Part shown: positions 3,704 to 17,759 of the stretch, in pieces
Position numbering within the stretch: position 1 is the first letter of the stretch
Layout of the letters: each line of letters begins with the position of its first letter
The notes under the pieces: model-generated
The model's input: only the letters and a program-made list of their open reading frames with translations
The model's database searches: none
What the model was told of the DNA's origin: nothing
Virus record (IMG/VR): IMGVR_UViG_3300044712_000458
Location: 1 to 24,389 of that record
DNA: 24,389 nucleotides
Source of the DNA: a virus
Direction: 5' to 3' (one strand)
Translations under genes and position numbers: made by a program

Positions 3704-3844
3704 TTATTCGCCCCTAGGAATTTTTTGGCCCCCTTCTACAATGGACCTGATAATAGATTTGGCTAAATCTTCATGACCCTGTTCTAGCCAATGTTTAGCC
3801 AAACTTAGTTTCATCTTAGTAGAATCTTCAAATGGATCAGTCAT
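3704..3844 (-). CDS. hypothetical 46-aa protein
   Basis: MTDPFEDSTKMKLSLAKHWL and the following residues form one or two amphipathic helices. TAATG overlap with the upstream gene; last gene of its unit. Confidence 0.7.
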   Translation of the reverse strand: MTDPFEDSTKMKLSLAKHWLEQGHEDLAKSIIRSIVEGGQKIPRGE

Positions 3845-4179
3845 TACTCCTCCCCATCATAGACTTCTACGATGCCGACCTCTAGCATCCAGGCTCTCAG
3901 GTCCTCATAGAGTTGCTCTGAGCCGTATTCGATTGTGAATTGGTTCTGGTCAGCCTGTGTCCAGAATAGTTCCCACATCTCTTCTTCTTCCATGGCTGTG
4001 CTGTACTCTGGGTCTCCGCCCTCCTGCACATCCTTATAGATAGACTTAGCAACATCCCATGTCCACACCCAGGTAAGGGGCGGGAAGACATCAAGTTCTC
4101 CAATCTCATCTAGGATGTTATTAATCTTGGCATATGTATCAGTCATACGTGTCTTCTCTTGTAGGTCCATATTACTCAT
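3844..4179 (-). CDS. hypothetical 111-aa acidic protein
   Basis: Acidic, aromatic-rich (PPLTWVWTWDVAKSIYKD) with an EEEEMWELFW helix. The start at 4179 is preferred because GGAGG lies 9 bases before it; an ATG at 4185 is too close to that site. No family recognised. Confidence 0.75.
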   Translation of the reverse strand: MSNMDLQEKTRMTDTYAKINNILDEIGELDVFPPLTWVWTWDVAKSIYKDVQEGGDPEYSTAMEEEEMWELFWTQADQNQFTIEYGSEQLYEDLRAWMLEVGIVEVYDGEE

Positions 4180-4342
4180 TCTCATATACCTCCACTAGTT
4201 CAATTACGTTGTCTGTCTCGATTTCAAACCAATCATCTGTATTTCTAGATTCAGCAATATCATAGGCTTGGAGCCCATCTTCTGCTGCTACATCCATATA
4301 GTACAGTTTAGTTAAAGCACCAGTTACTCTAAATATCTTCAT
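4172..4342 (-). CDS. hypothetical 56-aa protein
   Basis: MKIFRVTGALTKLYYMDVAAEDGLQA is a beta-alpha pattern also seen in small phage proteins. ATGA overlap with the upstream gene; the end carries the ribosome site for the next gene. Confidence 0.7.
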   Translation of the reverse strand: MKIFRVTGALTKLYYMDVAAEDGLQAYDIAESRNTDDWFEIETDNVIELVEVYENE

Positions 4343-4602
4343 TTAGAATTCCTTTCTGATATTGCAAATGCCAATTGATAAGTTAATTGATATACTGCTG
4401 TCAAGGCGTCCATGTATCCTTCGTTATATAAACGTTGAACAGTATCTTCGTAGTCCTCATCTGAGCCCAACTCATTTGAGTTCTCTAGCAGAGGTGCTAG
4501 TTCTTGCTCACATTCATACATCATGTTCTTTAATTCACCATGAAGAATATCTGTGCCAGATTCTCCTAGGTCTACTAGTTTTTGAATTCTATCTAACAAC
4601 AT
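4339..4602 (-). CDS. hypothetical 87-aa helical protein
   Basis: Helical, acidic (YECEQELAPLLENSN, DEDYEDTVQRLYNEGYMDAL). Two adjacent ATGs (4605 and 4602) follow AACGAAAGG; 4602 has the better spacing. It has its own box-type promoter, which lies within the 3' end of the upstream gene. Confidence 0.75.
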   Translation of the reverse strand: MLLDRIQKLVDLGESGTDILHGELKNMMYECEQELAPLLENSNELGSDEDYEDTVQRLYNEGYMDALTAVYQLTYQLAFAISERNSK

Positions 4603-4828
4603 CATATGCCCTTTCGTTTGTTTTTTGCAGTATATCACGAGCCACCGACAAAAGGTGGGAGGTGGCATATATTTCACCAGTATTATTCATATCAGTAATC
4701 TCTAACTCCTCATATTCATCAGAGTCATAGTCACCTTCAAATTCATCCATTTGGGTTTGAAGCTTTTCTGCATCTTGATATAAACTAATTAGATGTAGTT
4801 CCATATAGGCGATCATTTCTTCCAACAT
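4589..4828 (-). CDS. hypothetical 79-aa protein whose tail is coded by a promoter
   Basis: Acidic helical protein (QTQMDEFEGDYDSDEYEELE). Start at 4828 overlaps the previous TAA (TAATG). Its last 20 or so residues (LLSVARDILQKTNERAYDVV) are encoded by the box promoter and leader of the next gene, so the reading frame may have been extended by read-through into that module. Confidence 0.7.
   Translation of the reverse strand: MLEEMIAYMELHLISLYQDAEKLQTQMDEFEGDYDSDEYEELEITDMNNTGEIYATSHLLSVARDILQKTNERAYDVVR
4629..4653 (-). promoter_or_regulatory. box-N10--10 promoter, copy 1
   Basis: Minus strand TTTTGTCGG (4645-4653), 10 bases, TATACT (4629-4634), upstream of gene 4339-4602 and inside the coding region of gene 4589-4828. 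Confidence 0.75.
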
Positions 4829-4989
4829 TATTCCCCCCAATATTCTTGAATTAATGCCATTGCCTGGTGAAGATTGCAATCGCAATCCCCACCGTTCATA
4901 TTCTCCATAAAATCGAAATGAGAATAATTATCCTCATAGATTGCTGTAACTAATTCATGGATTGCATATGGCTTATATGTTGTGCTCAT
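4828..4989 (-). CDS. hypothetical 53-aa protein
   Basis: The start at 4989 overlaps the upstream TAA (TAATG) behind a GAGGGGG ribosome site, so a longer in-frame reading is rejected. Contains CDCN and an IQEYWGE tail. Function unknown. Confidence 0.7.
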   Translation of the reverse strand: MSTTYKPYAIHELVTAIYEDNYSHFDFMENMNGGDCDCNLHQAMALIQEYWGE

Positions 4990-5663
4990 TATTCCCCCTC
5001 GTTTGTAGGTTCTGATTGTACACCATGGGTCTGACAATTTGCTCTGTCCTCATCTATTGGCTCACCATAGCCACATTTAGGACACATATCGAATTCACAG
5101 GTTTCACAGTATGGAGGCTCATCTGATTCTTCATAACCGCATTCCCAGCATTTCCAGTTATATTCAGAATGAGAAAGCATTTTGCCATTAGCAAACTCTG
5201 CTGAACCACCCCAGCCTGTTTCTTCTTGATACTCATTTGTAATCAAAACGGACGGGAACTGATTAGATAGTTCTATTAGTACTGTATTAGGAGTTCCCCA
5301 TGCTGTATCAAAGTTATATACAAGTACGTGATTCTCACCATTTGGCTCATCATAAACTAATTCAGGACTATTTGCATCCCACTTAACACCCCAATTACGA
5401 TTATTCCAAGAATACCAGTCATTACCTGAATATGGTGAATCTGATTTGAAATCAGGTTGCTTAGGATATGCTTCCATATCTGTTGGTTTAATTATATTCC
5501 AAAAAGAAAAGACGGAATCAACAGGTACATCTTTAACAGAATAAGCCAAATCACCATTAGCCTCAACAGGCATAACATATGGCTTAGATACTTGCTCTTT
5601 AATCTGATTAATTAATTCAGGCTTACCCTCAATTGATACTGAATTAGATACCCAATTTGGCAT
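4989..5663 (-). CDS. Api92/YubB-like (DUF1281-type) protein with C-terminal zinc ribbon
   Basis: The 224-residue protein opens MPNWVSNSVSIEG and shows the landmarks of the Api92/YubB ferredoxin-like-fold family: FSFWNIIKP (52-60), WYSWNNRNWGVKWDA (83-97), FDTAWGTP (118-125) and ETGWGG (148-153). These proteins occur in phages and plasmids and have no settled function. The C-terminal part adds CWEC (172-175), CETC (186-189), CPKC (194-197) and a late C/H pair, likely two zinc sites. Start 5663 is set by GAAAGG behind the conserved leader and box promoter. Confidence 0.8.
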   Translation of the reverse strand: MPNWVSNSVSIEGKPELINQIKEQVSKPYVMPVEANGDLAYSVKDVPVDSVFSFWNIIKPTDMEAYPKQPDFKSDSPYSGNDWYSWNNRNWGVKWDANSPELVYDEPNGENHVLVYNFDTAWGTPNTVLIELSNQFPSVLITNEYQEETGWGGSAEFANGKMLSHSEYNWKCWECGYEESDEPPYCETCEFDMCPKCGYGEPIDEDRANCQTHGVQSEPTNEGE

Positions 5664-5690
5664 TTTATATCCTTTCGTTGATATGAGAGA

Positions 5691-5716
5691 ATTATAGCCT
5701 ATGCCACCGACAAATT
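5691..5716 (-). promoter_or_regulatory. box-N10--10 promoter, copy 2
   Basis: AATTTGTCGG (5707-5716), 10 bases, TATAAT (5691-5696), then a leader ending AACGAAAGG before gene 4989-5663. A degenerate CRP-like word (TGTGT-N6-GCACA, 5731-5746) lies upstream. Confidence 0.85.
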
Positions 5717-5861
5717 GAATACTATTTGGGTGTGTTTCACAGCACATTGTTAGGTTTGAAATGTCCGATTTTGTAAGCTTTTGTTAGGTTTGATCAAAAA
5801 TTCCAGGAAATTTTATTGACATACGTAAAAGAGATATGTTACCCTCTGCTTTTGAGGGCAT

Positions 5862-5901
5862 AAAAAAGTGGCCCCTATAGCCCACCCAAGCTATAGGGAC
5901 C
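5862..5901 (-). terminator. terminator after gene 5944-6348
   Basis: GGTCCCTATAGC pairs with GCTATAGGGGCC (11 of 12 pairs) and is followed on the minus strand by TTTTTT. A classic intrinsic terminator. Confidence 0.9.
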
Positions 5902-5903
5902 GT

Positions 5904-5936
5904 GTGGGGAGGGAGAACGAAAGGAAACCTCCCCAC
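5904..5936 (-). terminator. second hairpin before the terminator
   Basis: GTGGGGAGG and CCTCCCCAC pair perfectly around a 15-base loop directly after the stop of gene 5944-6348. It stacks in front of the stronger terminator at 5862-5901. Confidence 0.6.
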
Positions 5937-5943
5937 CATTCAT

Positions 5944-6348
5944 TTAAACTGGCAACATATGGTCCGAGTATTTCTCTACGAATGTTGACAAGTCCATTGT
6001 AAAGATTGCCTCATTCTTCATCCCTCGAATTTTGTTATCTTCATTTCTAAAGTCGTCTTCCTCATGAAGACTGAATGTCTGCTGCTCCCAGTCGATTACA
6101 GGAATCTTGTGCTCGTTATCTAGAATCTCATTAACACTGAGCCCCCAGCCTGTCTCCATGTTCCACTGGTCCGCCACGAGACGTGAGACCGCAATACGTG
6201 TTGCATATGATGAATCATTCCAGCGTGGACGTGCATGCCCTACAGCCTCAGCCAAACGGTTAAGCATTTGGTGTCCAGCCCAGTGTCCATAGAGTACAAT
6301 TGAATCACCCTTACGGTCCACGAATGCGAAGTTCGCTCTATCACCCAT
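5944..6348 (-). CDS. conserved phage protein of the MGDRAN type, 134 aa
   Basis: Starts MGDRANFAFVDRKGDSIVLYGHWAGHQML, a pattern familiar from many actinobacteriophage early proteins; role unknown. The start overlaps the end of the upstream gene by 8 bases. Last gene of a three-gene unit (7104 to 5944). Confidence 0.8.
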   Translation of the reverse strand: MGDRANFAFVDRKGDSIVLYGHWAGHQMLNRLAEAVGHARPRWNDSSYATRIAVSRLVADQWNMETGWGLSVNEILDNEHKIPVIDWEQQTFSLHEEDDFRNEDNKIRGMKNEAIFTMDLSTFVEKYSDHMLPV

Positions 6349-6538
6349 TTATTTTTTCTTCCGTTTCTACTAGTTCTTTCTTGTCTAATTCTATAACTTC
6401 ATAGGCCTGTTTGTCAAGAGCCTCTTTATTTTTATTATAATGATGCCCGCAGAAATAAAGCTCTCCAGCGATCATCCTGACCAGGTATAACGCCTGCGCC
6501 GAAGCGCAGGCATCACACCCAACCCAACCTGAATCCAT
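6341..6538 (-). CDS. DUF7455-like zinc-binding protein, 65 aa
   Basis: CDACASAQALYLVRM, a short turn, then LYFCGHHYNKNKEAL: a CxxC plus CGHH metal site as in the actinobacterial/phage DUF7455 family. TAATG overlap with the upstream gene. Confidence 0.75.
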   Translation of the reverse strand: MDSGWVGCDACASAQALYLVRMIAGELYFCGHHYNKNKEALDKQAYEVIELDKKELVETEEKING

Positions 6539-6912
6539 TAGTATGGCTCCTCTACTGAATAGAGTTCGTAGTTATCGATAACCACATTGCCGTTGTTGAT
6601 GTCTACATAAACATCTTCAAGGGCGGAGGTTAGGTCGAAGTCTGCAACCTCATTCATTGGAATATCGATAGAACCTGAGAAGTGGATTACACCCTCAAAC
6701 TGTACTGTCTTAACAGGATTGTAATCGATAATCTCGCAGATTGATTCTAGAATATCTGATGAATCTGAATCGTTCTCATATGCATTATTAACTAAATCAA
6801 TTAATTGTGAGCCGATGCGACCATGCTCAGCCTTCCAGTAATCTGCTTGCTGAAGCTTTAGTTCAAGTTCTGTAATTTTTGCAGTTAGTTCTGGCAATGC
6901 ATTTTCAATCAT
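6538..6912 (-). CDS. internal-start 124-aa product
   Basis: ATG at 6912 (MIENALPEL) is preceded by AACGAAAGAGG at good spacing and by a box promoter with TACAAT, so it is likely made independently of the 188-aa frame in which it lies. Sequence features are those of residues 65-188 of the longer product. Confidence 0.6.
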   Translation of the reverse strand: MIENALPELTAKITELELKLQQADYWKAEHGRIGSQLIDLVNNAYENDSDSSDILESICEIIDYNPVKTVQFEGVIHFSGSIDIPMNEVADFDLTSALEDVYVDINNGNVVIDNYELYSVEEPY

Positions 6913-7104
6913 TGGTTCCTCTTTCGTTGTTGTTGATGGGAGTATTGTAGCATCTGCTACTGACAAAAGTGTTAATGGCCTGCCACAAGGACATGTGATG
7001 TTCATCACATTTGGAATTCCACGGTCATCTCTAACTGTATATTCAATTAAAGTATCACAAGCATCTGGGTCACATGCTAACGAATACTTAGTCCATTTTT
7101 TCAT
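6538..7104 (-). CDS. 188-aa protein, probably two genes fused through an embedded promoter
   Basis: The N-terminal ~50 residues form a small zinc-ribbon-like unit (CDPDACDTLIEY, CPCGRPLTLL). Residues 65-188 begin at an internal ATG (6912) behind GAAAGAGG, with a coiled segment (LTAKITELELKLQQ) and a beta-rich tail. Between them a complete box promoter and leader (6913-6968) is read in frame as LLSVADATILPSTTTKEEP. Both a long and a short product are likely; the short form (6538-6912, 124 aa) has its own signals. Function unknown. Confidence 0.7.
   Translation of the reverse strand: MKKWTKYSLACDPDACDTLIEYTVRDDRGIPNVMNITCPCGRPLTLLSVADATILPSTTTKEEPMIENALPELTAKITELELKLQQADYWKAEHGRIGSQLIDLVNNAYENDSDSSDILESICEIIDYNPVKTVQFEGVIHFSGSIDIPMNEVADFDLTSALEDVYVDINNGNVVIDNYELYSVEEPY
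6944..6968 (-). promoter_or_regulatory. box-N10--10 promoter, copy 3 (inside a gene)
   Basis: TTTTGTCAG (6960-6968), 10 bases, TACAAT (6944-6949), then CTC and a leader with AACGAAAGAGG before the ATG at 6912. Fully within the reading frame 6538-7104. Confidence 0.75.
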
Positions 7105-7130
7105 TTTTACCTCTTTCGTTTTATAGGAGT

Positions 7131-7156
7131 ATTATAGCGGACCCCACTGACAAATT
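7131..7156 (-). promoter_or_regulatory. box-N10--10 promoter, copy 4
   Basis: AATTTGTCAG (7147-7156), 10 bases, TATAAT (7131-7136), then a leader with ACGAAAGAGG before gene 6538-7104. Confidence 0.85.
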
Positions 7157-7179
7157 GTGGGATTTCCTGGAAATTAAAT

Positions 7180-7195
7180 TGTGATTCGTAACACA
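7180..7195 (-). promoter_or_regulatory. CRP-like site (imperfect)
   Basis: TGTGA-TTCGTA-ACACA, one mismatch in the right arm, centred about 64 bases before the inferred start of the promoter at 7131. Confidence 0.5.
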
Positions 7196-7251
7196 AAAAA
7201 TGTGCGTTCAGCTTTGGGGGCATCAGATCGGTTTTGTCAAATTTCAGCTAG

Positions 7252-7283
7252 ATCCCTAAGGGATGGGGCCCCGCAGGGCCCCA
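7252..7283 (-). terminator. GC-rich hairpins after gene 7289-8293
   Basis: TGGGGCCC and GGGCCCCA pair perfectly around a four-base loop just past the stop; an ATCCC/GGGAT hairpin partly overlaps it. There is no T-run, so it may block or process rather than terminate in the classic way. Confidence 0.6.
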
Positions 7284-7288
7284 CCAAT

Positions 7289-8293
7289 TTATAGGGCTTT
7301 TACCGCCTGCAGAATCTTATTCTTTTCTGCGGTGAGAACAGGGTCAAATCCTGATGCACCCGCCATGAGTGTTTCAGAATTACCACGACCTGAGCGGAAA
7401 TAATCTAGGCGCTCAGTAAGCGCATTAAATGCACCCCACTTTGTGCCCTTGATTGTTTCGTTAGTTGGTGATGTGTGATACAAATCGTTAATGAGAACAA
7501 TTTTATTCTCCCAACGCTTAAGAGCATTCTTAGCCTCAGTTTCAGGCTTTGGATAAATTGATGTAATCAACTTATTAAATTCCAAATCGGTAATCGCCTG
7601 AGAATAAAGAGCCTGAGCCTCTTTCTCAAACTCATCAAAGTAACCAAGAGCAAGACCAAGAGTCTCACGTGCAACTTGAATTCTGCCGTCGACAGATTGC
7701 GTGTGACGAATCTTGAATGACTGCTTTGCATTACGCATTGCAAGATTCAAAGTATTTTGGCAAACTACACGAACAGGTGTAACTGCAGCCTGAACAGCAA
7801 CAGAACCGTCATGCGATGTCCAAACAATAAGATATAACTTAGTTTGGTCATTAGCGCCTTGTGGGTCTAGAACCATTGTGCGAGGAATGTCAACAGTTCC
7901 AAACACGACACGACCCTTCTTCAATGAGCCTGCAGATTCCCAACGGCAGGCAGGGTCTGCATCATGAATTGCATCAGCAAATGCAAATAATTCTTCATTC
8001 TGCACAGGCTTATAACGCTTACCAACAGTTGCGAGAACGTCGGTTCCACCATTAAATGGATTAGTACGCAAAACTAGTTGAGCATCTGATGTATCGCTCC
8101 ATGTCTCAGGGAGATATTCTGCAACAGGTGAGAGGCGAACATTCCAATTGGAAAGTTTAGCCTCTTCAAGCATGGTTGATGTTGTAACTTCTTCATCTTG
8201 TGAAAAGATACGGTTTGCGAGATTGTGCCATGCAGGTGCTCCACGCAATGCAAATGCAACTTCGCCGTTTTCGATTTCGAGGTTATGAGCCAT
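7289..8293 (-). CDS. DUF932-family phage protein
   Basis: The 334-residue protein matches the DUF932 (phage/plasmid-like, TIGR03299) family: AFALRGAPAWHNL near the start, TVGKRYKPVQNEELFAFADA (about 89-108), ESAGSLKKGRVVFGTVD and VTPVRVVCQNTLNLA. Such proteins are common in phages and plasmids; their biochemical role is unsettled. The start at 8293 (MAHNLEIEN) is fixed by GAAAGAAGGA behind the box promoter; an upstream in-frame ATG lies within the promoter and is rejected. Largest gene of the leftward block. Confidence 0.85.
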   Translation of the reverse strand: MAHNLEIENGEVAFALRGAPAWHNLANRIFSQDEEVTTSTMLEEAKLSNWNVRLSPVAEYLPETWSDTSDAQLVLRTNPFNGGTDVLATVGKRYKPVQNEELFAFADAIHDADPACRWESAGSLKKGRVVFGTVDIPRTMVLDPQGANDQTKLYLIVWTSHDGSVAVQAAVTPVRVVCQNTLNLAMRNAKQSFKIRHTQSVDGRIQVARETLGLALGYFDEFEKEAQALYSQAITDLEFNKLITSIYPKPETEAKNALKRWENKIVLINDLYHTSPTNETIKGTKWGAFNALTERLDYFRSGRGNSETLMAGASGFDPVLTAEKNKILQAVKAL

Positions 8294-8324
8294 GATTTCC
8301 TTCTTTCGTTTGATTGATTGGGTA

Positions 8325-8350
8325 ATTATAACAGGTGGGTCTGACAATTA
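8325..8350 (-). promoter_or_regulatory. box-N10--10 promoter, copy 5
   Basis: AATTGTCAG (8341-8349), 10 bases, TATAAT (8325-8330), leader with AACGAAAGAAGG before the DUF932 gene. Confidence 0.85.
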
Positions 8351-8378
8351 CTAGTCTGGCATCATCTTATGATCAGAA

Positions 8379-8394
8379 TGTGACCAGTCTCACA
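8379..8394 (-). promoter_or_regulatory. CRP-like site, perfect arms
   Basis: TGTGA-CCAGTC-TCACA, an exact match to the CRP/GlxR-type consensus, centred about 68 bases before the inferred start of the DUF932 promoter and next to a TTTCAGGG element. Confidence 0.7.
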
Positions 8395-8434
8395 ATTTTC
8401 AGGGTGTGTTGGTACTTGACGTAAACGATCAAAT

Positions 8435-8469
8435 GCCCCCACAGCTATGGGGGCCCCTTTCGGGGCCCC
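8435..8469 (-). terminator. two overlapping GC hairpins after gene 8475-8717
   Basis: GGGGCCCC-GAAA-GGGGCCCC and GCCCCC-(8 bases)-GGGGGC share the same central arm and cannot form together. A weak T-rich stretch follows. Probable terminator with alternative folds. Confidence 0.65.
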
Positions 8470-8474
8470 GCATA

Positions 8475-8717
8475 CTATGCGAAAGCTTTGGCTTTAGTTT
8501 TAATTGATTGTGTTATTTCCATCGGAACAAACGCAGCTGTTGTCTTCTGCTTCTTTAGCATGTCATAGACGAAAGCTTTGACATTACCATCGAACTTATT
8601 GATATTAGAATAAACTAATTCAACGAGATGTTCTTTATCTACACCGATCTCGGAATAAATAGTAACATCGTTCTGCTTTACTTCGTCATAGATTTCAACT
8701 CGAAAGCGATTACGCAT
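8475..8717 (-). CDS. hypothetical 80-aa protein
   Basis: MRNRFRVEIYDEVKQNDVTIYSE suggests a beta hairpin, followed by helices and a lysine-rich tail. Single-gene unit with its own ordinary promoter (TTGACG-17-TATACT) and GAAAGAAAAAAG leader. No family recognised. Confidence 0.75.
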   Translation of the reverse strand: MRNRFRVEIYDEVKQNDVTIYSEIGVDKEHLVELVYSNINKFDGNVKAFVYDMLKKQKTTAAFVPMEITQSIKTKAKAFA

Positions 8718-8747
8718 TTCTTTTTTCTTTCTCTAGTAGGGATATAA

Positions 8748-8776
8748 AGTATAGCAATTTAATTTAACCCCGTCAA
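8748..8776 (-). promoter_or_regulatory. sigma70-type promoter for gene 8475-8717
   Basis: TTGACG (8771-8776), 17 bases, TATACT (8748-8753). One of the few units in this block without the TGTCRG box. Confidence 0.8.
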
Positions 8777-8834
8777 GGGGAGCAGTTTATCCACTTACTC
8801 AGGTGCTTTGTTTTGGCGTTATTGCCAAACTTAT

Positions 8835-9236
8835 TTAGAGATACTGTGCAATCTGCTTGAAGGTTGAGGCATTTACAACTTCCTCATCTGTCATCTTCAA
8901 GATACGAATTGCGTTCTCGATTTCTGTAATTTCATACTGACCAAGTTCACGCTCTAGGTCAATAGTTGGCTTCTCAGGAAGTTTAATTGAACCAGCAGGA
9001 AGTGTGATGGTTACATTAACTTCATTACGCCAGTTCTCATGTGCAGAAACTTCTGCCTTTGAGATTTGCTTGAATACAGCATCTGCTACTTCCTTAGCCC
9101 AAGTCTTCTCTACCTTCTCGTATTCCTTGCGCTTCTTCTCGTTATTAACGATAGCCTTCTTGCTATCTGCTAACTTATCTTCAAGTGCCTTAACTACCTT
9201 AGTAGTTGCGACCTTAACTGAAATTGCTCTTGACAT
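8835..9236 (-). CDS. hypothetical 133-aa protein with coiled-coil N-terminus
   Basis: Residues 10-60 are strongly helical and charged (LEDKLADSKKAIVNNEKKRKE), then beta-like (VNVTITLPAG) and helical again. Resembles a recurrent actinophage protein of unknown role. Box promoter and AACGAAAGG leader. Confidence 0.8.
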   Translation of the reverse strand: MSRAISVKVATTKVVKALEDKLADSKKAIVNNEKKRKEYEKVEKTWAKEVADAVFKQISKAEVSAHENWRNEVNVTITLPAGSIKLPEKPTIDLERELGQYEITEIENAIRILKMTDEEVVNASTFKQIAQYL

Positions 9237-9265
9237 TGTATTACCTTTCGTTTGTTTGTTGTTGT

Positions 9266-9290
9266 ATTATAGTGGGTGGGTCTGACATTT
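9266..9290 (-). promoter_or_regulatory. box-N10--10 promoter, copy 6
   Basis: AAATGTCAG (9282-9290), 10 bases, TATAAT (9266-9271), leader with AAACGAAAGG before gene 8835-9236. Confidence 0.85.
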
Positions 9291-9300
9291 TCCCCTAAGG

Positions 9301-9340
9301 GAGAGAGTTCTTACTTACGACATTGGGCGAGAACACTCTC
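9301..9340 (-). terminator. hairpin after gene 9368-9505
   Basis: GAGAG-x-GTTCT pairs with AGAAC-x-CTCTC (10 pairs, one mismatch) around an 18-base loop. No good T-run; likely 3' end hairpin. Confidence 0.5.
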
Positions 9341-9367
9341 TTAAACTGCCCCTGTTTCGATTCTAGT

Positions 9368-9505
9368 TTATGCTGTTGTCCAGCGGTCTTTTCCATTTAC
9401 ATCAAGTAGAAGACGCTGTGTTCCATTTGGATTAGCAACGATTTCCTTGATAGTTCCGACAACGCCTGACTTGGCGGTTGTGAAGGTCTGTCCGATTTCT
9501 AGCAT
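9368..9505 (-). CDS. conserved small phage protein, 45 aa
   Basis: MLEIGQTFTTAKSGVVGTI and LLLDVNGKDRWTTA make a short SH3-like beta barrel pattern common in actinophage early regions. Function unknown. Box promoter and TCGAAAGG leader. Confidence 0.75.
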   Translation of the reverse strand: MLEIGQTFTTAKSGVVGTIKEIVANPNGTQRLLLDVNGKDRWTTA

Positions 9506-9535
9506 TTTGTTTCCTTTCGATTGGTTATGGTGAGT

Positions 9536-9560
9536 ATTATACACGACCCCACCGACATTT
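9536..9560 (-). promoter_or_regulatory. box-N10--10 promoter, copy 7
   Basis: AAATGTCGG (9552-9560), 10 bases, TATAAT (9536-9541), before gene 9368-9505. Only a half CRP-like word (TGTGA) is seen upstream. Confidence 0.85.
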
Positions 9561-9595
9561 ATCGTGTTTATTTAATTATTTAATTGTGACCTTTA

Positions 9596-9718
9596 TCATA
9601 TAAACTCGAAGGGGTCACGATCTTCGAAGATATCTTCCAGCTCTTGGAAACTATACTCTCCAGGGTTTGCATAGTAGTCCTGGAGAGCTTCCATAATTCT
9701 AGTATCTTGCTCGCTCAT
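9596..9718 (-). CDS. hypothetical 40-aa acidic peptide
   Basis: MSEQDTRIMEALQDYYANPG and an acidic tail. TAATG overlap with the upstream gene, so translationally coupled. No family recognised. Confidence 0.65.
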   Translation of the reverse strand: MSEQDTRIMEALQDYYANPGEYSFQELEDIFEDRDPFEFI

Positions 9719-9990
9719 TATTCCTCATCCCATTGTGGTAGCCAAGCATCTAAGTGGTGAGCATCTACAATTGCAGACGCAGGGCATGAAGTTTGCCCAC
9801 GCCATGAGATACCTTCTGGAAGATTAATCTCACGGGAATAATCTTCCTCGAAGTATGCATCGATAGCATCGATACAAGGTTGCACCATAGCAACGGGGAC
9901 GGGTGGATAATGATTAGCCTGGAGGTGATAAGCGAGTCCTGCTTCTAGTGATAAATCCTCTGCAAGTCCTACTGCGGTTGTGTGTCCCAT
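9718..9990 (-). CDS. conserved actinophage protein of unknown function, 90 aa
   Basis: LSLEAGLAYHLQANHYPPVP and PASAIVDAHHLDAWLP are motifs I recall from a widespread actinobacteriophage protein; no function is assigned. Box promoter and AACGAAAGGA leader set the start. Confidence 0.8.
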   Translation of the reverse strand: MGHTTAVGLAEDLSLEAGLAYHLQANHYPPVPVAMVQPCIDAIDAYFEEDYSREINLPEGISWRGQTSCPASAIVDAHHLDAWLPQWDEE

Positions 9991-10019
9991 TTTATTTCCT
10001 TTCGTTTGATTATATGGAG

Positions 10020-10044
10020 ATTATATCAGGGGGTACTGACATTT
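10020..10044 (-). promoter_or_regulatory. box-N10--10 promoter, copy 8
   Basis: AAATGTCAG (10036-10044), 10 bases, TATAAT (10020-10025), before gene 9718-9990. Confidence 0.85.
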
Positions 10045-10063
10045 AATCAGTACCCCCATTTAA

Positions 10064-10285
10064 TTATTCTACGATAGTTAGACGGGCGAAGCCTGCGGAG
10101 CCCTCATTGACATCTGCAATAAAGTTTGTAACCCCTAGAGCATGAATTGTTGTTTGCTTTACCATTTCGGTAAGTTCTGCTTCCGAGAGAGAGATAAGAG
10201 TTGGAAGCAATTTAGCCTCTACCTTATCAATATTGATTTCTGCCATGAAAGTAATTGTGTGTGGGATTCGCATAATGTTTGACAT
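10064..10285 (-). CDS. hypothetical 73-aa protein
   Basis: MSNIMRIPHTITFMAEINID: beta strand, helix (SLSEAELTEMVKQTTIHALG), beta strand. Start at 10285 is fixed by AACGAAAGG; a longer in-frame reading runs back through the promoter and is rejected. Confidence 0.75.
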   Translation of the reverse strand: MSNIMRIPHTITFMAEINIDKVEAKLLPTLISLSEAELTEMVKQTTIHALGVTNFIADVNEGSAGFARLTIVE

Positions 10286-10315
10286 GTCGTGCCTTTCGTT
10301 TGTTGGTATGAGAGT

Positions 10316-10340
10316 ATTATAGCGTGTTGCACCGACATTA
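10316..10340 (-). promoter_or_regulatory. box-N10--10 promoter, copy 9
   Basis: TAATGTCGG (10332-10340), 10 bases, TATAAT (10316-10321), before gene 10064-10285. Confidence 0.85.
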
Positions 10341-10374
10341 TCTAATCTATTATCGGCGTGTCGCAAATATATTT

Positions 10375-10390
10375 TGTGATTAACCTCACA
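10375..10390 (-). promoter_or_regulatory. CRP-like site, perfect arms
   Basis: TGTGA-TTAACC-TCACA, centred about 73 bases before the inferred start of copy 9, directly followed by TTTCCAGGG. Confidence 0.7.
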
Positions 10391-10415
10391 ATTTCCAGGG
10401 TGTGTCGGAGCTTGA

Positions 10416-10473
10416 CATAAAAAGATTTTGGCCCCCACAGATCTACGGGCCCTAGCCCGCTTTGTCAAGCGGG
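10416..10473 (-). terminator. tandem hairpins after gene 10490-10696
   Basis: CCCGCTT-(4)-AAGCGGG (10456-10473, perfect) then GGCCC/GGGCC (10430-10451), followed on the minus strand by AAAATCTTTTT. Probable terminator. Confidence 0.75.
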
Positions 10474-10489
10474 AAGGGTGTGAATTAAA

Positions 10490-10696
10490 TCACATATAGT
10501 CTTCGTCTGAACCAAATCCAGCGGAAGCGAGGGCATAGTTATCATCAGCATGATCATACCACTCATGAAGATACATGTCTTCAGCATTTTGACAGTTAGG
10601 GCAGAGATAGTCATCTTCATAGAAGCCATACTCATAGTCATCTAGAATGATAGAATCTGAACAGTCTGCGTTCATGCAATATACTTTGTATTCCAT
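10490..10696 (-). CDS. 68-aa zinc-ribbon-like acidic protein
   Basis: C7 and C12 (YCMNADC) and CPNC (about 32-35) suggest one zinc site; the rest is rich in D, E and Y. TAATG overlap with the upstream gene. Confidence 0.7.
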   Translation of the reverse strand: MEYKVYCMNADCSDSIILDDYEYGFYEDDYLCPNCQNAEDMYLHEWYDHADDNYALASAGFGSDEDYM

Positions 10697-10836
10697 TAGT
10701 TTGCCTCCGTTGTTACGAATAGTTGGTCAATGATGTCATACTCTAGCATAGCCTCAACTTCACGGTCAAGGTAGCAGTGGAAACAGTAGAGTTCTGTCAT
10801 TGAGACAGAGTTCTCATTACATGAGATACATGTCAT
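10696..10836 (-). CDS. 46-aa zinc-finger protein
   Basis: CISC and CFHC pairs (residues 3-6 and 18-21) form a likely four-cysteine zinc site, followed by an acidic helix. Start at 10836 follows the AACGAAAGG leader of box promoter copy 10. Confidence 0.7.
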   Translation of the reverse strand: MTCISCNENSVSMTELYCFHCYLDREVEAMLEYDIIDQLFVTTEAN

Positions 10837-10865
10837 GGGTGTTGCCTTTCGTTCGATTTAAGAGA

Positions 10866-10890
10866 ATACTACCATTACGGACTGACAAAT
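10866..10890 (-). promoter_or_regulatory. box-N10--10 promoter, copy 10
   Basis: ATTTGTCAG (10882-10890), 10 bases, TAGTAT (10866-10871), before gene 10696-10836. Confidence 0.8.
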
Positions 10891-10929
10891 CAAAAACGAC
10901 ACGCCGTATTTTTCAGGGGATCTATCTGA

Positions 10930-10945
10930 TGTGTCTTAAATCACA
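10930..10945 (-). promoter_or_regulatory. CRP-like site (one arm mismatch)
   Basis: TGTGT-CTTAAA-TCACA, about 78 bases before the inferred start of copy 10. The same 16 bases recur at 11961-11976. Confidence 0.55.
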
Positions 10946-10948
10946 TTT

Positions 10949-10970
10949 GGCCCCCGCAGTTTTGCGGGCC
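10949..10970 (-). terminator. hairpin after gene 10982-11095
   Basis: GGCCCGCA-AAAC-TGCGGGGGCC pairs over at least eight bases just past the stop, followed by AAATGT. Probable terminator without a strong T-run. Confidence 0.6.
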
Positions 10971-10981
10971 TGCATATTTAT

Positions 10982-11095
10982 TCATTCATATGAATTTTTA
11001 TGCTTGCGCTTGCGTGTGTATTTTTTCTTATTGCGAACAGGGGTTGCGGCATTTGATCTCCGCAACTCCTGAATGCGTTTAATCTTCGACAACAC
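10982..11095 (-). CDS. 37-aa arginine/lysine-rich protein
   Basis: Residues RIQELRRSNAATPV and NKKKYTRKRKHKN make a very basic peptide of a type seen in actinophages. Start GTG 11095 (or TTG 11092) overlaps the upstream gene by 17 bases, so coupling is assumed. A 39-aa frame with an ATG over the same DNA is possible but looks less protein-like. Confidence 0.5.
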   Translation of the reverse strand: MLSKIKRIQELRRSNAATPVRNKKKYTRKRKHKNSYE

Positions 11096-11189
11096 ATTTA
11101 CATCTTTTAACACTTAACACATCTCCCTCAATATATACTGCACCAAAATCTTCGCAACTAGAACATACAAACATTTCAACTAATTGCAT
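11079..11189 (-). CDS. 36-aa zinc-ribbon-like peptide
   Basis: FVCSSCEDFG and KRCKCVVED give a CxxC/CxC pair of metal ligands. Starts directly after the upstream TAA. Small CxxC proteins like this recur through the block. Confidence 0.6.
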   Translation of the reverse strand: MQLVEMFVCSSCEDFGAVYIEGDVLSVKRCKCVVED

Positions 11190-11375
11190 TTAATTAACCG
11201 CTTTCATATTGTAATTGCTTGCTTCATGAAATTTAGTTACATCAAAGTTAGGATTTTCTTTTGCAAACATCTCCGCAAAATCTGTAACCATCTTAGTAAA
11301 TAATGCAGGGTGCATTTTATTGCTTGCATACTTTAGAATTTCGGCGGTTGCCTCAAAGTGTTTTCTAGTCATCAT
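11190..11375 (-). CDS. conserved small phage protein (MTRKHFEA type), 61 aa
   Basis: MTRKHFEATAEILKYASNK and FAEMFAKENPNFDVTKFHEA is a pattern familiar from many actinophages; role unknown. A paralogue lies at 12131-12304. TAATG overlap with the upstream gene. Confidence 0.8.
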   Translation of the reverse strand: MMTRKHFEATAEILKYASNKMHPALFTKMVTDFAEMFAKENPNFDVTKFHEASNYNMKAVN

Positions 11376-11581
11376 TATTTAACTACTACCCTTCCATCTC
11401 GGTAAAATACTTTTGTGTAACATTTTCCTGTTGGTGTGTAAAGATTAACTGTTGAATACTCATTTGCTAATCCCCAATCCTTGAACATGAAAAAATTTTC
11501 CCATGCTGCATATTCCATTTCATATGTAGCAGACCAATGAGGTGATTCCTCAAAGTCATATTGGCAAGTTAATTTATACAT
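11375..11581 (-). CDS. hypothetical 68-aa protein
   Basis: MYKLTCQYDFEESPHWSATY and a C-terminal GKCYTKVFYRDGRVVVK suggest an all-beta fold. Overlaps the next upstream gene by one base. Confidence 0.75.
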   Translation of the reverse strand: MYKLTCQYDFEESPHWSATYEMEYAAWENFFMFKDWGLANEYSTVNLYTPTGKCYTKVFYRDGRVVVK

Positions 11582-11784
11582 TACTCACCTACCTTTACTG
11601 CAACTGTGCGGTATGTAGTGGAAATTCGGTTATCAGGCTGTACCTCAACTAGATAAGAATCGCAACCTTCATACCATACTGCATGAGGGTGTTCCTCTGC
11701 AGATACGATAACTCCAGAAAGAGTTGAAGAGGTGTAACGCTTGCCGATAAGCAAGTCACGGACAGAATAAACATTTGCAGACAT
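11581..11784 (-). CDS. conserved small phage protein, 67 aa
   Basis: VYSVRDLLIGKRYTSSTLSG and SYLVEVQPDNRIS point to a small beta barrel; similar short proteins occur in actinophages. First gene of a five-gene unit (11784 to 10982) under box promoter copy 11. Confidence 0.75.
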   Translation of the reverse strand: MSANVYSVRDLLIGKRYTSSTLSGVIVSAEEHPHAVWYEGCDSYLVEVQPDNRISTTYRTVAVKVGE

Positions 11785-11814
11785 GGAATCCGCCTTTCTT
11801 TAGGTTATGCAGAT

Positions 11815-11840
11815 ATTATAGCCTAGGGGTCTGACAAATA
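11815..11840 (-). promoter_or_regulatory. box-N10--10 promoter, copy 11
   Basis: ATTTGTCAG (11831-11839), 10 bases, TATAAT (11815-11820), leader ending AAAGAAAGG before gene 11581-11784. Confidence 0.85.
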
Positions 11841-11884
11841 TCCAATCCGTCAAGACTTTTTCTCAATATATGGAACAAAATTCA

Positions 11885-11900
11885 TGTGATGCTAGTCACA
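11885..11900 (-). promoter_or_regulatory. CRP-like site, perfect arms
   Basis: TGTGA-TGCTAG-TCACA, about 84 bases before the inferred start of copy 11. Confidence 0.7.
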
Positions 11901-11960
11901 TTAAAATGTCCGAATTGTCTGTCAAATCGACACGCCGAGGAATTCCAGGGAATTTCTTAA

Positions 11961-11976
11961 TGTGTCTTAAATCACA
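11961..11976 (-). promoter_or_regulatory. CRP-like site (one arm mismatch), second copy
   Basis: TGTGT-CTTAAA-TCACA, identical to 10930-10945. It lies next to a terminator, far (about 160 bases) from the nearest box promoter. Confidence 0.45.
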
Positions 11977-12000
11977 AAAAGCCCCCACGCTTTTGCGGGC
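11976..12000 (-). terminator. terminator after gene 12034-12141
   Basis: GCCCGC-AAAA-GCGTGGGGGC stem with a bulge, followed on the minus strand by TTTTTG. Confidence 0.7.
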
Positions 12001-12033
12001 GGATCAGCTTTTGTCAAGCCGACACGCCGTGTT

Positions 12034-12141
12034 TTATTTTATTTTTTCTAGAATCTTTTCAAGCTCTTTTAATTGTTCTAGATTAAGGTGATCGAGTTGA
12101 ATAGCATTCGCAAAACCGAAAGGGTCTTGATTATTTTCCAT
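12034..12141 (-). CDS. hypothetical 35-aa helical peptide
   Basis: MENNQDPFGFANAIQLDHLN and a leucine/lysine/glutamate helix (LKELEKILEKIK). Overlaps the upstream gene by 11 bases. Confidence 0.55.
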   Translation of the reverse strand: MENNQDPFGFANAIQLDHLNLEQLKELEKILEKIK

Positions 12142-12304
12142 GAATTGCCTCCATAAACTTAGAGCGGTTGAAGTTAGGGTTATCGGTTTCGAATATCTCA
12201 CACATGTTGTTAATTAGGAAACGCTTAGCCTCAAAATCTGGAAAGCCTTTCTCTATTGAATTAAGTAGACCCGCAAAACGTTGATAGTCTTTCTTAGTCA
12301 TCAT
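12131..12304 (-). CDS. paralogue of the MTRKHFEA-type protein, 57 aa
   Basis: MTKKDYQRFAGLLNSIEKG and EIFETDNPNFNRSKFMEAI align by eye with gene 11190-11375 (shared MT-K, F-A and NPNF--xKF). Start overlaps the upstream TAA. Function unknown. Confidence 0.7.
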   Translation of the reverse strand: MMTKKDYQRFAGLLNSIEKGFPDFEAKRFLINNMCEIFETDNPNFNRSKFMEAIHGK

Positions 12305-12432
12305 TAGTCTGCCTCCTTAGTGTTGAACAATTGTGACATTGTAGCATTAGCCTGTGACATTGTAGCGATAGCCTTTTGTAGGCTTGCTTGACGTTGCGCC
12401 TCTACATGCGCCTTGTATTCTTCAAGAGTCAT
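12304..12432 (-). CDS. hypothetical 42-aa peptide with internal repeat
   Basis: MTLEEYKAHVEAQRQASLQK then ATMSQAN-ATMSQLF, a seven-residue repeat that also shows as a DNA repeat. Probably one long helix. Second gene of the unit led by copy 12. Confidence 0.65.
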   Translation of the reverse strand: MTLEEYKAHVEAQRQASLQKAIATMSQANATMSQLFNTKEAD

Positions 12433-12435
12433 TTA

Positions 12436-12552
12436 TTAACGACCTTTCTTATCTTGTAGGGACTTAGCATAGTCTACATCAGAAACGGCGGATTCGCCAA
12501 ATTCCTCGTAGATGTCTAGATAAATTTCGTCGTAGTAATCGTTGTAGTCCAT
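12436..12552 (-). CDS. hypothetical 38-aa acidic peptide
   Basis: MDYNDYYDEIYLDIYEEFGE is unusually rich in D, E and Y, followed by SAVSDVDYAKSLQDKKGR. First gene behind box promoter copy 12, with GAAAGGTGG ribosome site. Confidence 0.65.
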   Translation of the reverse strand: MDYNDYYDEIYLDIYEEFGESAVSDVDYAKSLQDKKGR

Positions 12553-12590
12553 TGTGAACCACCTTTCTTTTGTTTAACTCTATGTATGGA

Positions 12591-12615
12591 ATACTACCAT
12601 GGGGGTCTGACATTT
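12591..12615 (-). promoter_or_regulatory. box-N10--10 promoter, copy 12
   Basis: AAATGTCAG (12607-12615), 10 bases, TAGTAT (12591-12596), before gene 12436-12552. Confidence 0.8.
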
Positions 12616-12645
12616 ATGAGGGTATAAATCGGACATAGTGGACAA

Positions 12646-12661
12646 TGTGGTGTAGCTCACA
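12646..12661 (-). promoter_or_regulatory. CRP-like site, tandem pair member 1
   Basis: TGTGG-TGTAGC-TCACA, about 69 bases before the inferred start of copy 12. Confidence 0.6.
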
Positions 12662-12677
12662 TGTGGTGTGCATCACA
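12662..12677 (-). promoter_or_regulatory. CRP-like site, tandem pair member 2
   Basis: TGTGG-TGTGCA-TCACA, abutting the previous site, so the two palindromes sit 16 bases apart centre to centre. Confidence 0.6.
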
Positions 12678-12731
12678 ATGTGACAGAAATCTCAGGGGAA
12701 TTTTACGACACGCCGTATAATAACTTGACAA

Positions 12732-12753
12732 CGCCCACAAAAGAATGGGGGCG
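12732..12753 (-). terminator. hairpin after gene 12788-12910
   Basis: CGCCC and GGGCG arms pair about a loop, downstream of the stop; followed by TTGTCAAG rather than a T-run. Part of the terminator-plus-decamer arrangement shared with 11976-12029. Confidence 0.5.
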
Positions 12754-12787
12754 GATCGCCTATTTGTCAAGGCGACACGCCGATAGG

Positions 12788-12910
12788 CTAATGTGATTCG
12801 TGCCACATCTCTCGCATGTCTGCGATTACCTCACGCCCTACGATCCTCGCCATATATAGGGCGGGGATAGCGATAAAGAGCTGAACCATACTAGTTAAAA
12901 ATCTATTCAT
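12788..12910 (-). CDS. 40-aa membrane peptide
   Basis: MNRFLTSMVQLFIAIPALYMARIV has one hydrophobic span (about 5-23) and a charged tail (GREVIADMREMWHESH). Ribosome site GAAGGAAAG. Role unknown. Confidence 0.6.
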   Translation of the reverse strand: MNRFLTSMVQLFIAIPALYMARIVGREVIADMREMWHESH

Positions 12911-12975
12911 TACTTTCCTTCTTTCATCTGTTTAATAGCGAATAATACGGAGGCGGTTAGTAGTAGCGTAGCCAT
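12910..12975 (-). CDS. 21-aa membrane peptide
   Basis: MATLLLTASVLFAIKQMKEGK, one short hydrophobic span. TAATG overlaps on both sides, as with its neighbours; its own 3' end supplies the GAAGGAAAG ribosome site of the next gene. Confidence 0.5.
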   Translation of the reverse strand: MATLLLTASVLFAIKQMKEGK

Positions 12976-13142
12976 TACATCTCCTCCCACTCATCTAAGT
13001 CAAACTCAACATCTTCAACATCATCAAGTTCAACATCTAGGTCAAACTCTTCATCATCATACTCAACCTCATAGCCGTGTTGAATAGTCTCAAACTTTTC
13101 ATCTGAAGAGGAATCTCTTTCCCATGACATTTTGTAACCCAT
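12975..13142 (-). CDS. 55-aa extremely acidic protein (possible DNA mimic)
   Basis: 24 of 55 residues are D or E, with only four K/R, and the middle reads EVEYDDEEFDLDVELDDVED. Such composition occurs in DNA-mimic anti-restriction and anti-nucleoid proteins (Ocr is the classic case), but the length is short and no family is recognised. TAATG overlap with the upstream gene. Confidence 0.7.
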   Translation of the reverse strand: MGYKMSWERDSSSDEKFETIQHGYEVEYDDEEFDLDVELDDVEDVEFDLDEWEEM

Positions 13143-13309
13143 TAGTTATTACCTACTTTCTTTTGAGCCTCACGGACTCTTTGCAACCATGGTGAAGAGG
13201 CTACTCTAGCCTCATGGATAAGGCGGTTACGCTCTTGCTGAGCAATAGCGAAAGCCTTGAAGTATTCATGTGTATTGCGGTCTCTATCCGCCTGTGTTAG
13301 TTGAGTCAT
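13142..13309 (-). CDS. hypothetical 55-aa helical protein
   Basis: MTQLTQADRDRNTHEYFKAF followed by a basic helix (ERNRLIHEARVA). Start at 13309 is chosen because AAAGGAG lies 5 bases upstream; an ATG at 13324 precedes that site. Confidence 0.7.
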   Translation of the reverse strand: MTQLTQADRDRNTHEYFKAFAIAQQERNRLIHEARVASSPWLQRVREAQKKVGNN

Positions 13310-13336
13310 TTTGACTCCTTTCATTTTGTTAGTAAT

Positions 13337-13365
13337 AAGGTATCAGATTATATTTAGTTTTTCAA
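13337..13365 (-). promoter_or_regulatory. probable promoter for gene 13142-13309
   Basis: TTGAAA (13360-13365), 17 bases, TACCTT (13337-13342). Weaker match than the others. Confidence 0.5.
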
Positions 13366-13375
13366 GTCTATTCGG

Positions 13376-13391
13376 TGTGGTGTTGCTCACA
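13376..13391 (-). promoter_or_regulatory. CRP-like site
   Basis: TGTGG-TGTTGC-TCACA, immediately after gene 13392-13568 and about 53 bases before the inferred start of the next unit. Confidence 0.6.
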
Positions 13392-13568
13392 CTAGAACGC
13401 TTGGCTAGTGATTACTAGTCTGCGCTCTTCACGCTTAGCGATATTACGCTTAAGTATTGGGAAAGGTAACTTATAGAGAGAAACATGTGTTTCTGTTTCG
13501 CTAGTTACAACACCTTCAAGGAACTTGCCGTTCTTGAGTGTTATCTCTGTCCAAAGTTTGTTAGTCAT
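13392..13568 (-). CDS. hypothetical 58-aa protein
   Basis: WTEITLKNGKFLEGVVTSE has an LxNGxxxxG pattern faintly like an Sm-type strand pair, then a basic tail (KRNIAKREERRLV). First gene transcribed in the leftward block, under box promoter copy 13. Confidence 0.7.
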   Translation of the reverse strand: MTNKLWTEITLKNGKFLEGVVTSETETHVSLYKLPFPILKRNIAKREERRLVITSQAF

Positions 13569-13601
13569 TTTATGACTCCTTTCGTTTTTCTTTATATATA
13601 A

Positions 13602-13626
13602 AGACTAACACGGGGGTCTGACAAAT
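13602..13626 (-). promoter_or_regulatory. box-N10--10 promoter, copy 13
   Basis: ATTTGTCAG (13618-13626), 10 bases, TAGTCT (13602-13607), leader with AACGAAAGGAG before gene 13392-13568. Confidence 0.75.
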
Positions 13627-13745: not shown

Positions 13746-13873
13746 TACAAATTAAAATTATATTAACATTTTTAGAAATATGAAATAGTAGTTGACTAGA
13801 ATATGATCAGAATGAAAAATAAAATTTTATTAACATTTTGTAGATATTGATATTGTAGTCGACTAAGATTATA
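13746..13873. repeat. imperfect tandem repeat, about 64 bases, two copies
   Basis: Two successive copies share TTATATTAACATTTT / TTTTATTAACATTTT, a TAGAAATAT / TAGATATTG stretch and TAGTTGACTAGAAT / TAGTCGACTAAGAT. They fill the gap between the leftward block and the 2OG oxygenase; no gene is seen here. Confidence 0.65.
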
Positions 13874-14708: not shown

Positions 14709-14767
14709 ATCTCTATTATACATTAAGTATTTTAAGTTGACTAGGATTATGTTATGATAGGTTCGCT

Positions 14768-15188: not shown

Positions 15189-15278
15189 TTGACTAAAATT
15201 AAGACAATACTCTGGGTAGGAATTATAGCAATCCTAGTTAATATATGTGGCATATTAATGCAGATATTTATATTCTAG
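15189..15278 (+). CDS. possible 29-aa membrane peptide (TTG start)
   Basis: From TTG at 15189: TKIKTILWVGIIAILVNICG then ILMQIFIF, one hydrophobic span, ending at a TAG that abuts tRNA-Ile. The TTG is also the start of a TTGACTA motif, so the frame may be fortuitous. No clear ribosome site. Confidence 0.3.
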   Translation: MTKIKTILWVGIIAILVNICGILMQIFIF

Positions 15279-15352
15279 GGCCTATAGCTTAATTAGGTAA
15301 AAGCAGTTGTCTTATATACAACCGACTATCGGTTCAAATCCGATTAGGCCTA
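15278..15352 (+). tRNA. tRNA-Ile (anticodon UAU)
   Basis: Complete cloverleaf: anticodon stem GTTGT/ACAAC with loop CTTATAT, T-arm ATCGG/CCGAT, acceptor GGGCCTA/TAGGCCT. Reads AUA. It stands 2 kb ahead of the main tRNA array. Confidence 0.9.
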
Positions 15353-15427
15353 CAAATAAATGTTCTTCTCTCCCAACGGCGCACTGAATTTCGCACTTAA
15401 TATGATCAATATAATATAATAAGGGTA

Positions 15428-15709
15428 ATGAAGACTGAGAAGGTCTCTGTAGCTAAACAAAAGGCTGCCCTCGCAAATTATATACGAGATTATAAGGAAC
15501 GCCATCCTTGCGCCGATTGTAAGATACAGTACCCCTATTATGTTATGGACTTTGATCATGTCCGTGGGGTAAAGCATAAGAATGTTATGGAACTGATTCC
15601 AACACTATCTAAAAAGAAGATCGATGAAGAGATTAAGAAATGTGAAGTGGTATGTTCTAACTGCCACCGTGTTCGTACTCACATGAGAAAGACTGCAAAA
15701 CGTAAATGA
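15428..15709 (+). CDS. HNH endonuclease
   Basis: 93 residues with C28/C31 and C76/C79 zinc pairs, the DFDHVRG block (41-47, catalytic H44) and CEVVCSNCHRVRTH (72-85). These are the standard marks of small phage HNH nucleases, which may act as homing enzymes or in DNA processing. Stop overlaps the next start (ATGA). Confidence 0.9.
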   Translation: MKTEKVSVAKQKAALANYIRDYKERHPCADCKIQYPYYVMDFDHVRGVKHKNVMELIPTLSKKKIDEEIKKCEVVCSNCHRVRTHMRKTAKRK

Positions 15710-17755: not shown

Positions 17756-17759
17756 CGAT

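Follow-up and report, generated by a model that had tools for sequence, protein, structure and literature searches.

The RecA-NDp (P1) promoters of mycobacteria and other Actinobacteria share the motif tTGTCRgtg-8 nt-TannnT, and P1 induction is abolished in a pafBC deletion (PMC5656591). In the WYL-domain activator PafBC, PafB reads the -26 motif and PafC holds domain 4 of sigma-A, a mode of action termed "sigma adaptation"; PafBC has been seen at the -26 motif in an initiation complex and is switched on by single-stranded DNA (ssDNA) bound to its WYL domains (PMC11804915). In this study, we analyzed a 24,389-base phage fragment, the full IMG/VR record IMGVR_UViG_3300044712_000458 (hereafter, the window), which carries a series of TGTCRG-N10-TANNNT sites on its minus strand. 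Judged by sequence, these 14 sites are very probably promoters of the RecA-NDp (PafBC-dependent) type that use the PafBC of the host. The promoter type is already known, and its use as a phage regulon is new as far as the literature searched shows; in that literature, from which subscription papers were mostly absent, titles and abstracts described no phage promoters of the PafBC or RecA-NDp type, and the motif string did not occur.

The phage motif TGTCRG-N10-TAnnnT equals the published RecA-NDp motif in bases and spacing, and its box falls at -26. As in the RecA-NDp regulon, whose promoters lack a -35 element and stand before recA and other repair genes, the spacing is fixed, and a -35 element may likewise be dispensable. 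The phage differs in having 14–19 copies in one block of small genes of unknown function, a -10 near TATAAT, and no LexA box alongside. The middle promoters of T4 are similar in that the MotA box near -30 replaces the -35 element and acts, with AsiA, through sigma domain 4. An earlier note on this DNA had placed the box near -30, as for MotA, and not at -35; this position was borne out and corresponds to the published -26 element. However, MotA and AsiA are phage-made, whereas here a host activator fits, and the two systems share logic but not sequence or ancestry. LexA-controlled phage genes, such as tum of coliphage 186 and others, are likewise wired to the host DNA-damage response, but they depend on repressor release, usually in prophage induction, whereas here a positive activator would serve many promoters of an apparently lytic block.

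Putative promoter sites in the window and in related phages

A pattern search of the whole window found 14 minus-strand TGTCRG-N10-TANNNT sites between 4629 and 13623 (Table 1). Dinucleotide shuffles of the window gave 0.43 sites (maximum 2) and the reversed pattern gave none, so the motif is not equally frequent at random positions, and these shuffles and the reversed controls ruled out a chance origin of the sites. The earlier note had counted 13 copies; its minus-strand pattern, with WWW and a spacing of exactly 10 bases, stood, and the count is corrected to 14. WWW lies directly 5' of the box in every one of the 14 sites, and the -10 sequences are those previously listed: TATAAT in eight, TACAAT and TAGTAT in two each, and TATACT and TAGTCT in one each. 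The remaining TGTCRG hexamers of the window have no -10 at this distance. About half of the sites have tg 3' of TGTCRG, and a weak -35-like string occurs at some single sites. Ordinary TTGAC promoters coexist with them (Table 1), which agrees with the earlier view that the rule is not general host style.

For most of these sites, an ATG lies 20–40 bases past the end of the -10, with a ribosome-binding site of the actinobacterial GAAAGG type. Most leaders contain (A)ACGAAAG, which matches the 16S rRNA tail ...CCTCCTTTCT taken from a candidate host genome. The leader (A)ACGAAAGG that the earlier note had seen after most copies is indeed present; because it matches this tail, it is best read as a Shine-Dalgarno signal for translation, outside the promoter proper.

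Related phages were collected as 80 loci by a protein search with the DUF932 product (7289–8293; 81–87% identity over the protein). These loci contained 1121 sites (reversed control, 11), and the gap between TGTCRG and TATAAT was exactly 10 bases in 427 of the 456 pairs lying within 30 bases of each other. The phage consensus was waaTGTCAGtg, TGn-TATAAT. The base before the box was T or A in 97% of the relatives' sites, the commonest bases after it were T (65%) and then G (53%), and no position upstream of WWW was conserved (817 sites). The -10 variants among 1117 sites included TATAAT (427), TACAAT (263) and TATACT (176). The DUF932 promoter was kept in all 80 orthologous loci, which represent 51 distinct sequences; TGTC, the second G of TGTCRG, the spacing and the TG before the -10 were invariant in these promoters, and the spacer was variable. 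No LexA box was found beside the phage sites in the window or in the relatives. The 120 pattern matches considered as unrelated phages were rejected as such, since all 120 share proteins with the phage family of the window.

Sixteen long records (72–117 kb) had 15–24 matches each, nearly all in one block of about 10–13 kb and on one strand. The record G004 (112,011 bases; L380 is its start and L385 its end) repeats about 3.27 kb at both ends, inside the promoter block; its 24 matches include the repeated end, and about 20 are left without it. The repeat exceeds the usual assembly overlap and may be a genuine terminal repeat like that of Streptomyces BE phages.

The strand and spacing of these sites bear on a different reading, in which TGTCRG is a repressor operator within an extended -10 promoter, like the TGTC-containing stoperators of cluster A mycobacteriophages. 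The many copies per genome would suit such an operator, and a promoter made of the -10 alone could function, given that TG often precedes the -10 and always does so in the DUF932 promoters. On the block strand of the relatives, however, 1117 of the 1501 TGTCRG hexamers are tied to a -10 at N10 and 384 are free, compared with 4 tied and 235 free among the 239 on the opposite strand, and the same element activates host genes. Both stoperators and the present sites are many, short, asymmetric and mostly on one strand, but stoperators are 13-mers of the TGTCAAG type, repress or stop elongation, and are not tied to a -10. Stoperator identity was rejected, because each of the present sites has TGTCRG at a constant distance from a -10 and the TGTCAAG strings of the window lie on both strands without such a link. 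Given the single fixed distance to the -10 and the activator role of the element in mycobacteria, the operator built into a -10-only promoter that the earlier note had offered is the weaker reading, and we regard it as very unlikely.

The motif and its probable activator in candidate host genomes

TTGTCRGTG-N8-TANNNT was found in 217 of 297 genomes of the class Actinomycetes, and the reversed pattern in about 30. A pattern scan of genome contigs, which returned mostly chance matches and some Actinobacteria, served only for entry points. As candidate hosts, we examined 12 small genomes of this class (1.2–1.5 Mb), which, judged by size and G+C content, probably belong to Nanopelagicales or a similar group. 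All 12 contained the short form of the motif, and in several of them a site before recA is followed directly by a LexA box, the arrangement of the two recA promoters in mycobacteria. Two adjacent WYL genes (pafB-pafC) were present in 11 of the 12, between trmI-like and tatC-like genes. In the genome G047, the products of this pair matched PafB and PafC in the solved structures (E values of 1e-47 and 7e-22) as well as Pfam HTH_PafC, and the PafB segment RMFERDK..LR.LGI is almost identical to that of Mycobacterium smegmatis PafB. The variants of the phage motif also recurred: ACC or CCC in place of tg after the box was found in phages and in hosts, and the ACCC spacer form of the phages (TGTCAG-ACCC) occurs in the host order too (TGTCRG-NCCC-N6-TANNNT, 45 sites compared with 8 reversed in 151 genomes).

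A weight matrix built from phage sites only was then used to scan the whole of G047 (1,344,614 bases). The six top sites lay before rmuC, recA, carD, a LysM gene whose product resembles the cell-division suppressor YneA, an AddA-like helicase-nuclease gene, and a DUF6504 gene (dnaE2/imu-type); a LexA box adjoins the recA, LysM and DUF6504 sites. When the matrix was restricted to its informative columns, carD, rmuC, recA and LysM ranked as the top four at spacing 10, and 5 of the top 6 and 6 of the top 8 sites preceded genes of this set. At spacing 8, two of these boxes were recovered but scored lower, and none of these genes was retrieved at spacings of 9, 11 or 12 or with the reversed and complemented matrices. 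The search of relatives and host that the earlier note had proposed thus returned the motif in relatives and candidate hosts alike, with the repair promoters of the candidate host among the matrix matches.

We also searched the phages for an activator of their own. The WYL family of Pfam was absent from all 11 long phage records searched, and PafB and PafC profiles from 11 host pairs, run with filters off against six-frame translations of the phages, found nothing (best E value 1.3; host controls 1e-125). The search for sigma-70 region 4 gave no confident sigma factor in the phages, only two sub-threshold matches in 51-residue frames. For one phage genome, the Pfam families listed included RecA, DnaB, a primase-type Toprim, ribonucleotide reductase, pyrimidine-dimer glycosylase and endonuclease VII, with no RNA polymerase among them. 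Because the phages lack a PafBC homologue and the candidate hosts have both PafBC and the same motif, the virus probably uses the host activator.

Alternatively, a phage-encoded MotA-like activator might read TGTCRG at -26, its resemblance to RecA-NDp arising by convergence or by mimicry of PafB. The box position and fixed spacing would suit an activator working with sigma domain 4, which WhiB-type proteins bind. WhiB, which is a marker of actinophages (PMC10202952, PMC6802176), was present in 10 of the 11 long phage records. No candidate for such an activator emerged from the WYL, sigma-70 region 4 and PafB/PafC searches, which did not include a profile of MotA itself. Furthermore, the site is the host motif down to its spacing and variants, and an unrelated phage activator would leave unexplained why a phage-derived matrix finds the regulon of the host. 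We therefore consider a phage-encoded activator quite improbable. The activator-dependent promoter class suggested in the earlier note remains the most likely one, with the PafBC of the host, and not a protein of the phage, as the most likely activator. As for other host regulators, ClgR was said in a 2011 study, as cited in PMC5656591, to recognize the RecA-independent P1 promoter; later work assigned the motif to PafBC through the pafBC deletion (PMC5656591) and the -26 complex (PMC11804915), and a role of ClgR at these sites is scarcely credible.

Several observations weigh against dependence on host PafBC. In G047, matrix matches above fixed cut-offs were no more numerous than in shuffled sequence, and the support from this genome therefore rests on gene identity and the spacing controls. 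The G+C content of the phages (36–39%) is below that of this candidate host (48.6%). In a sample of 24 cultured phages that have homologues of DUF932 or GP88, sites were at chance level (22 compared with about 20 reversed), and Jay2Jay, Karimac, L5-like and other cultured phages with homologous genes lack the sites. The phage -10s are much nearer to TATAAT than those of the hosts, the box accompanies 51% of the TG.TATAAT strings of the phage loci, and the phage promoters may be partly active without PafBC. Such near-consensus -10s, unlike the listed host sites, would be expected of constitutive extended -10 promoters that depend on PafBC no longer or only slightly and keep the box as a remnant. 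A remnant would decay, however, and TGTC and the G were invariant in the 51 distinct DUF932 promoters despite variation of the spacer; constitutive promoters of this kind are thus unlikely, and PafBC dependence is retained as the preferred reading.

Genes of the putatively controlled block and the rest of the window

The sites and the block that they would control are listed in Table 1.

Table 1. Predicted promoters and main features of the window (positions in the 24,389-base record).
Feature	Sequence	Position	Strand	Gene served or remark
RecA-NDp-type promoter	TGTCGG-N10-TATACT	4629..4650	-	gene start ~4605
RecA-NDp-type promoter	TGTCAG-N10-TACAAT	5015..5036	-	gene start ~4989
RecA-NDp-type promoter	TGTCGGTGG..TATAAT	5691..5712	-	before DUF1281_C (Api92-like) gene, start ~5663
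RecA-NDp-type promoter	TGTCAG-N10-TACAAT	6944..6965	-	within open reading frame (ORF) 6538-7104; shorter in-frame product from ~6912
RecA-NDp-type promoter	TGTCAGTGG..TATAAT	7131..7152	-	before ORF 6538-7104
RecA-NDp-type promoter	TGTCAG-N10-TATAAT	8325..8346	-	before DUF932 gene
RecA-NDp-type promoter	TGTCAG-N10-TATAAT	9266..9287	-	before ORF 8835-9236
RecA-NDp-type promoter	TGTCGGTGG..TATAAT	9536..9557	-	gene start ~9505
RecA-NDp-type promoter	TGTCAG-N10-TATAAT	10020..10041	-	before ORF 9718-9990; overlaps hairpin 10029-10057
RecA-NDp-type promoter	TGTCGGTG..TATAAT	10316..10337	-	gene start ~10285
RecA-NDp-type promoter	TGTCAG-N10-TAGTAT	10866..10887	-	short ORF from ~10836
RecA-NDp-type promoter	TGTCAG-N10-TATAAT	11815..11836	-	before ORF 11581-11784
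RecA-NDp-type promoter	TGTCAG-N10-TAGTAT	12591..12612	-	short ORF from ~12551
RecA-NDp-type promoter	TGTCAG-N10-TAGTCT	13602..13623	-	before ORF 13392-13568
Ordinary promoter (example)	TTGAC-N16-18	17314	+	ahead of tRNA cluster
Ordinary promoter (example)	TTGAC-N16-18	8776	-	
Ordinary promoter (example)	TTGAC-N16-18	3416	-	
Controlled block		3844..13623	-	many short genes, mostly no known domains, singly or paired behind one promoter each
DUF932 protein gene (PHROG 1221)		7289..8293	-	marker gene of the block

With one promoter ahead of it and one inside it, ORF 6538-7104 would yield its protein in two lengths. The hairpin that overlaps the promoter at 10020 is strong (GGGGGTACTGAnnnnnnnTCAGTACCCCC, with TGTCAGTACCCC as one arm), and the promoters at 4629 and 7131 show comparable overlaps of lesser length; this may be the reason for G/C-rich spacers (ACCC or GTGG).

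In Streptomyces BE-type phages, homologues of the DUF932 gene are located in the terminal repeats, twice per record and at 1.2–2.6 kb from the ends of the genome; a GP88 homologue lies near the right end of L5-like phages. These end regions are known as early. Because the DUF932 and GP88 homologues sit in such regions, the block is by analogy probably early. Its small genes are probably host-takeover genes. The Stanwilliamsviridae (Streptomyces phages such as Jay2Jay and Karimac) also carry DUF932 and GP88 homologues within a small-gene block, there in terminal repeats, but that block is devoid of RecA-NDp sites, which occur at chance level in the whole records. Inheritance of the sites from the Streptomyces phages, whose block is homologous, was therefore ruled out.

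An Rfam search of the block gave nothing credible. Two similar stretches at 10403–10480 and 12000–12100 contain GC-rich stems and TGTCAAG/CTTGACA; such stretches also appear as spurious similar frames in relatives, have no Rfam match, and are perhaps a repeated structured element or a terminator. Outside the block, 21 tRNA genes lie at 15278–19361, 20 of them packed in 17397–19361 behind the TTGACT-N17-TATAAT promoter at 17314. The genes at 13869–14723, 19353–20015, 16475–17119, 20463–21104 and 22069–23058 are oxygenase-like, methyltransferase-like (by eye) and glycosyltransferase (PHROG) genes, and an HNH-like frame lies at 15428–15709.

Proposed mechanism and reach beyond the family

In the mechanism that we propose, TGTCRG would be the -26 element read by the helix-turn-helix of PafB, with the -10 fixed 10 bases downstream. 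PafC would hold domain 4 of the main sigma factor of the host, which would make a -35 element dispensable, and host RNA polymerase with this sigma factor, adapted by host PafBC, would initiate at the phage sites. Given the requirement of PafBC for ssDNA, infection should itself induce the block through the ssDNA that it generates; ssDNA from phage entry, replication or destruction of host DNA would switch it on or up. The near-consensus -10s, the frequent TG before them and the absence of a LexA box make some PafBC-free activity and escape from LexA possible.

More distant groups, in contigs of 46–55% G+C, were found by a second pattern with the AGGAGG ribosome-binding site. These other phage groups (40–55% G+C) have their own RecA-NDp-type clusters before small and GP88-like genes: L514 and L526 are records of 58–72 kb with 9 sites each, L488 is a 95-kb record with 5 sites, and L547 and L583 represent further groups. 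L133, which shares proteins at about 50% identity, has TGTCGGTGG in most of its sites. The soil-type contigs with their own clusters (53–55% G+C) suggest that more than one phage family follows this strategy, and the viruses of the window's family would infect freshwater, and probably soil, actinobacteria. Among cultured phages, Mycobacterium phage MosMoris has a single RecA-NDp-like site (36776–36797; L607 976–998) immediately ahead of a Cas4-type exonuclease gene, and Microbacterium phage Blett has one (28654–28675; L608 6155–6176) just before an ssDNA-binding-protein gene; both single sites may be genuine.

A broader proposal, which we offer tentatively and would not yet favor, is that several phage lineages possess an ssDNA-gated lytic regulon run through host PafBC, in which 14–19 near-consensus sites, compared with about half a dozen strong host sites, would capture the PafBC–RNA polymerase complex and mute host repair. 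If the phages of the window's family do rely on host PafBC, this abundant freshwater family would tie a whole gene block to an ssDNA-sensing host activator without a regulator of its own. The promoters of genes without known domains would gain a named function, thousands of natural PafBC promoters would become available for studies of sigma adaptation, and actinobacterial hosts would be predictable from promoter style. With such phages one could also ask directly whether the LexA-independent damage response is triggered by infection.

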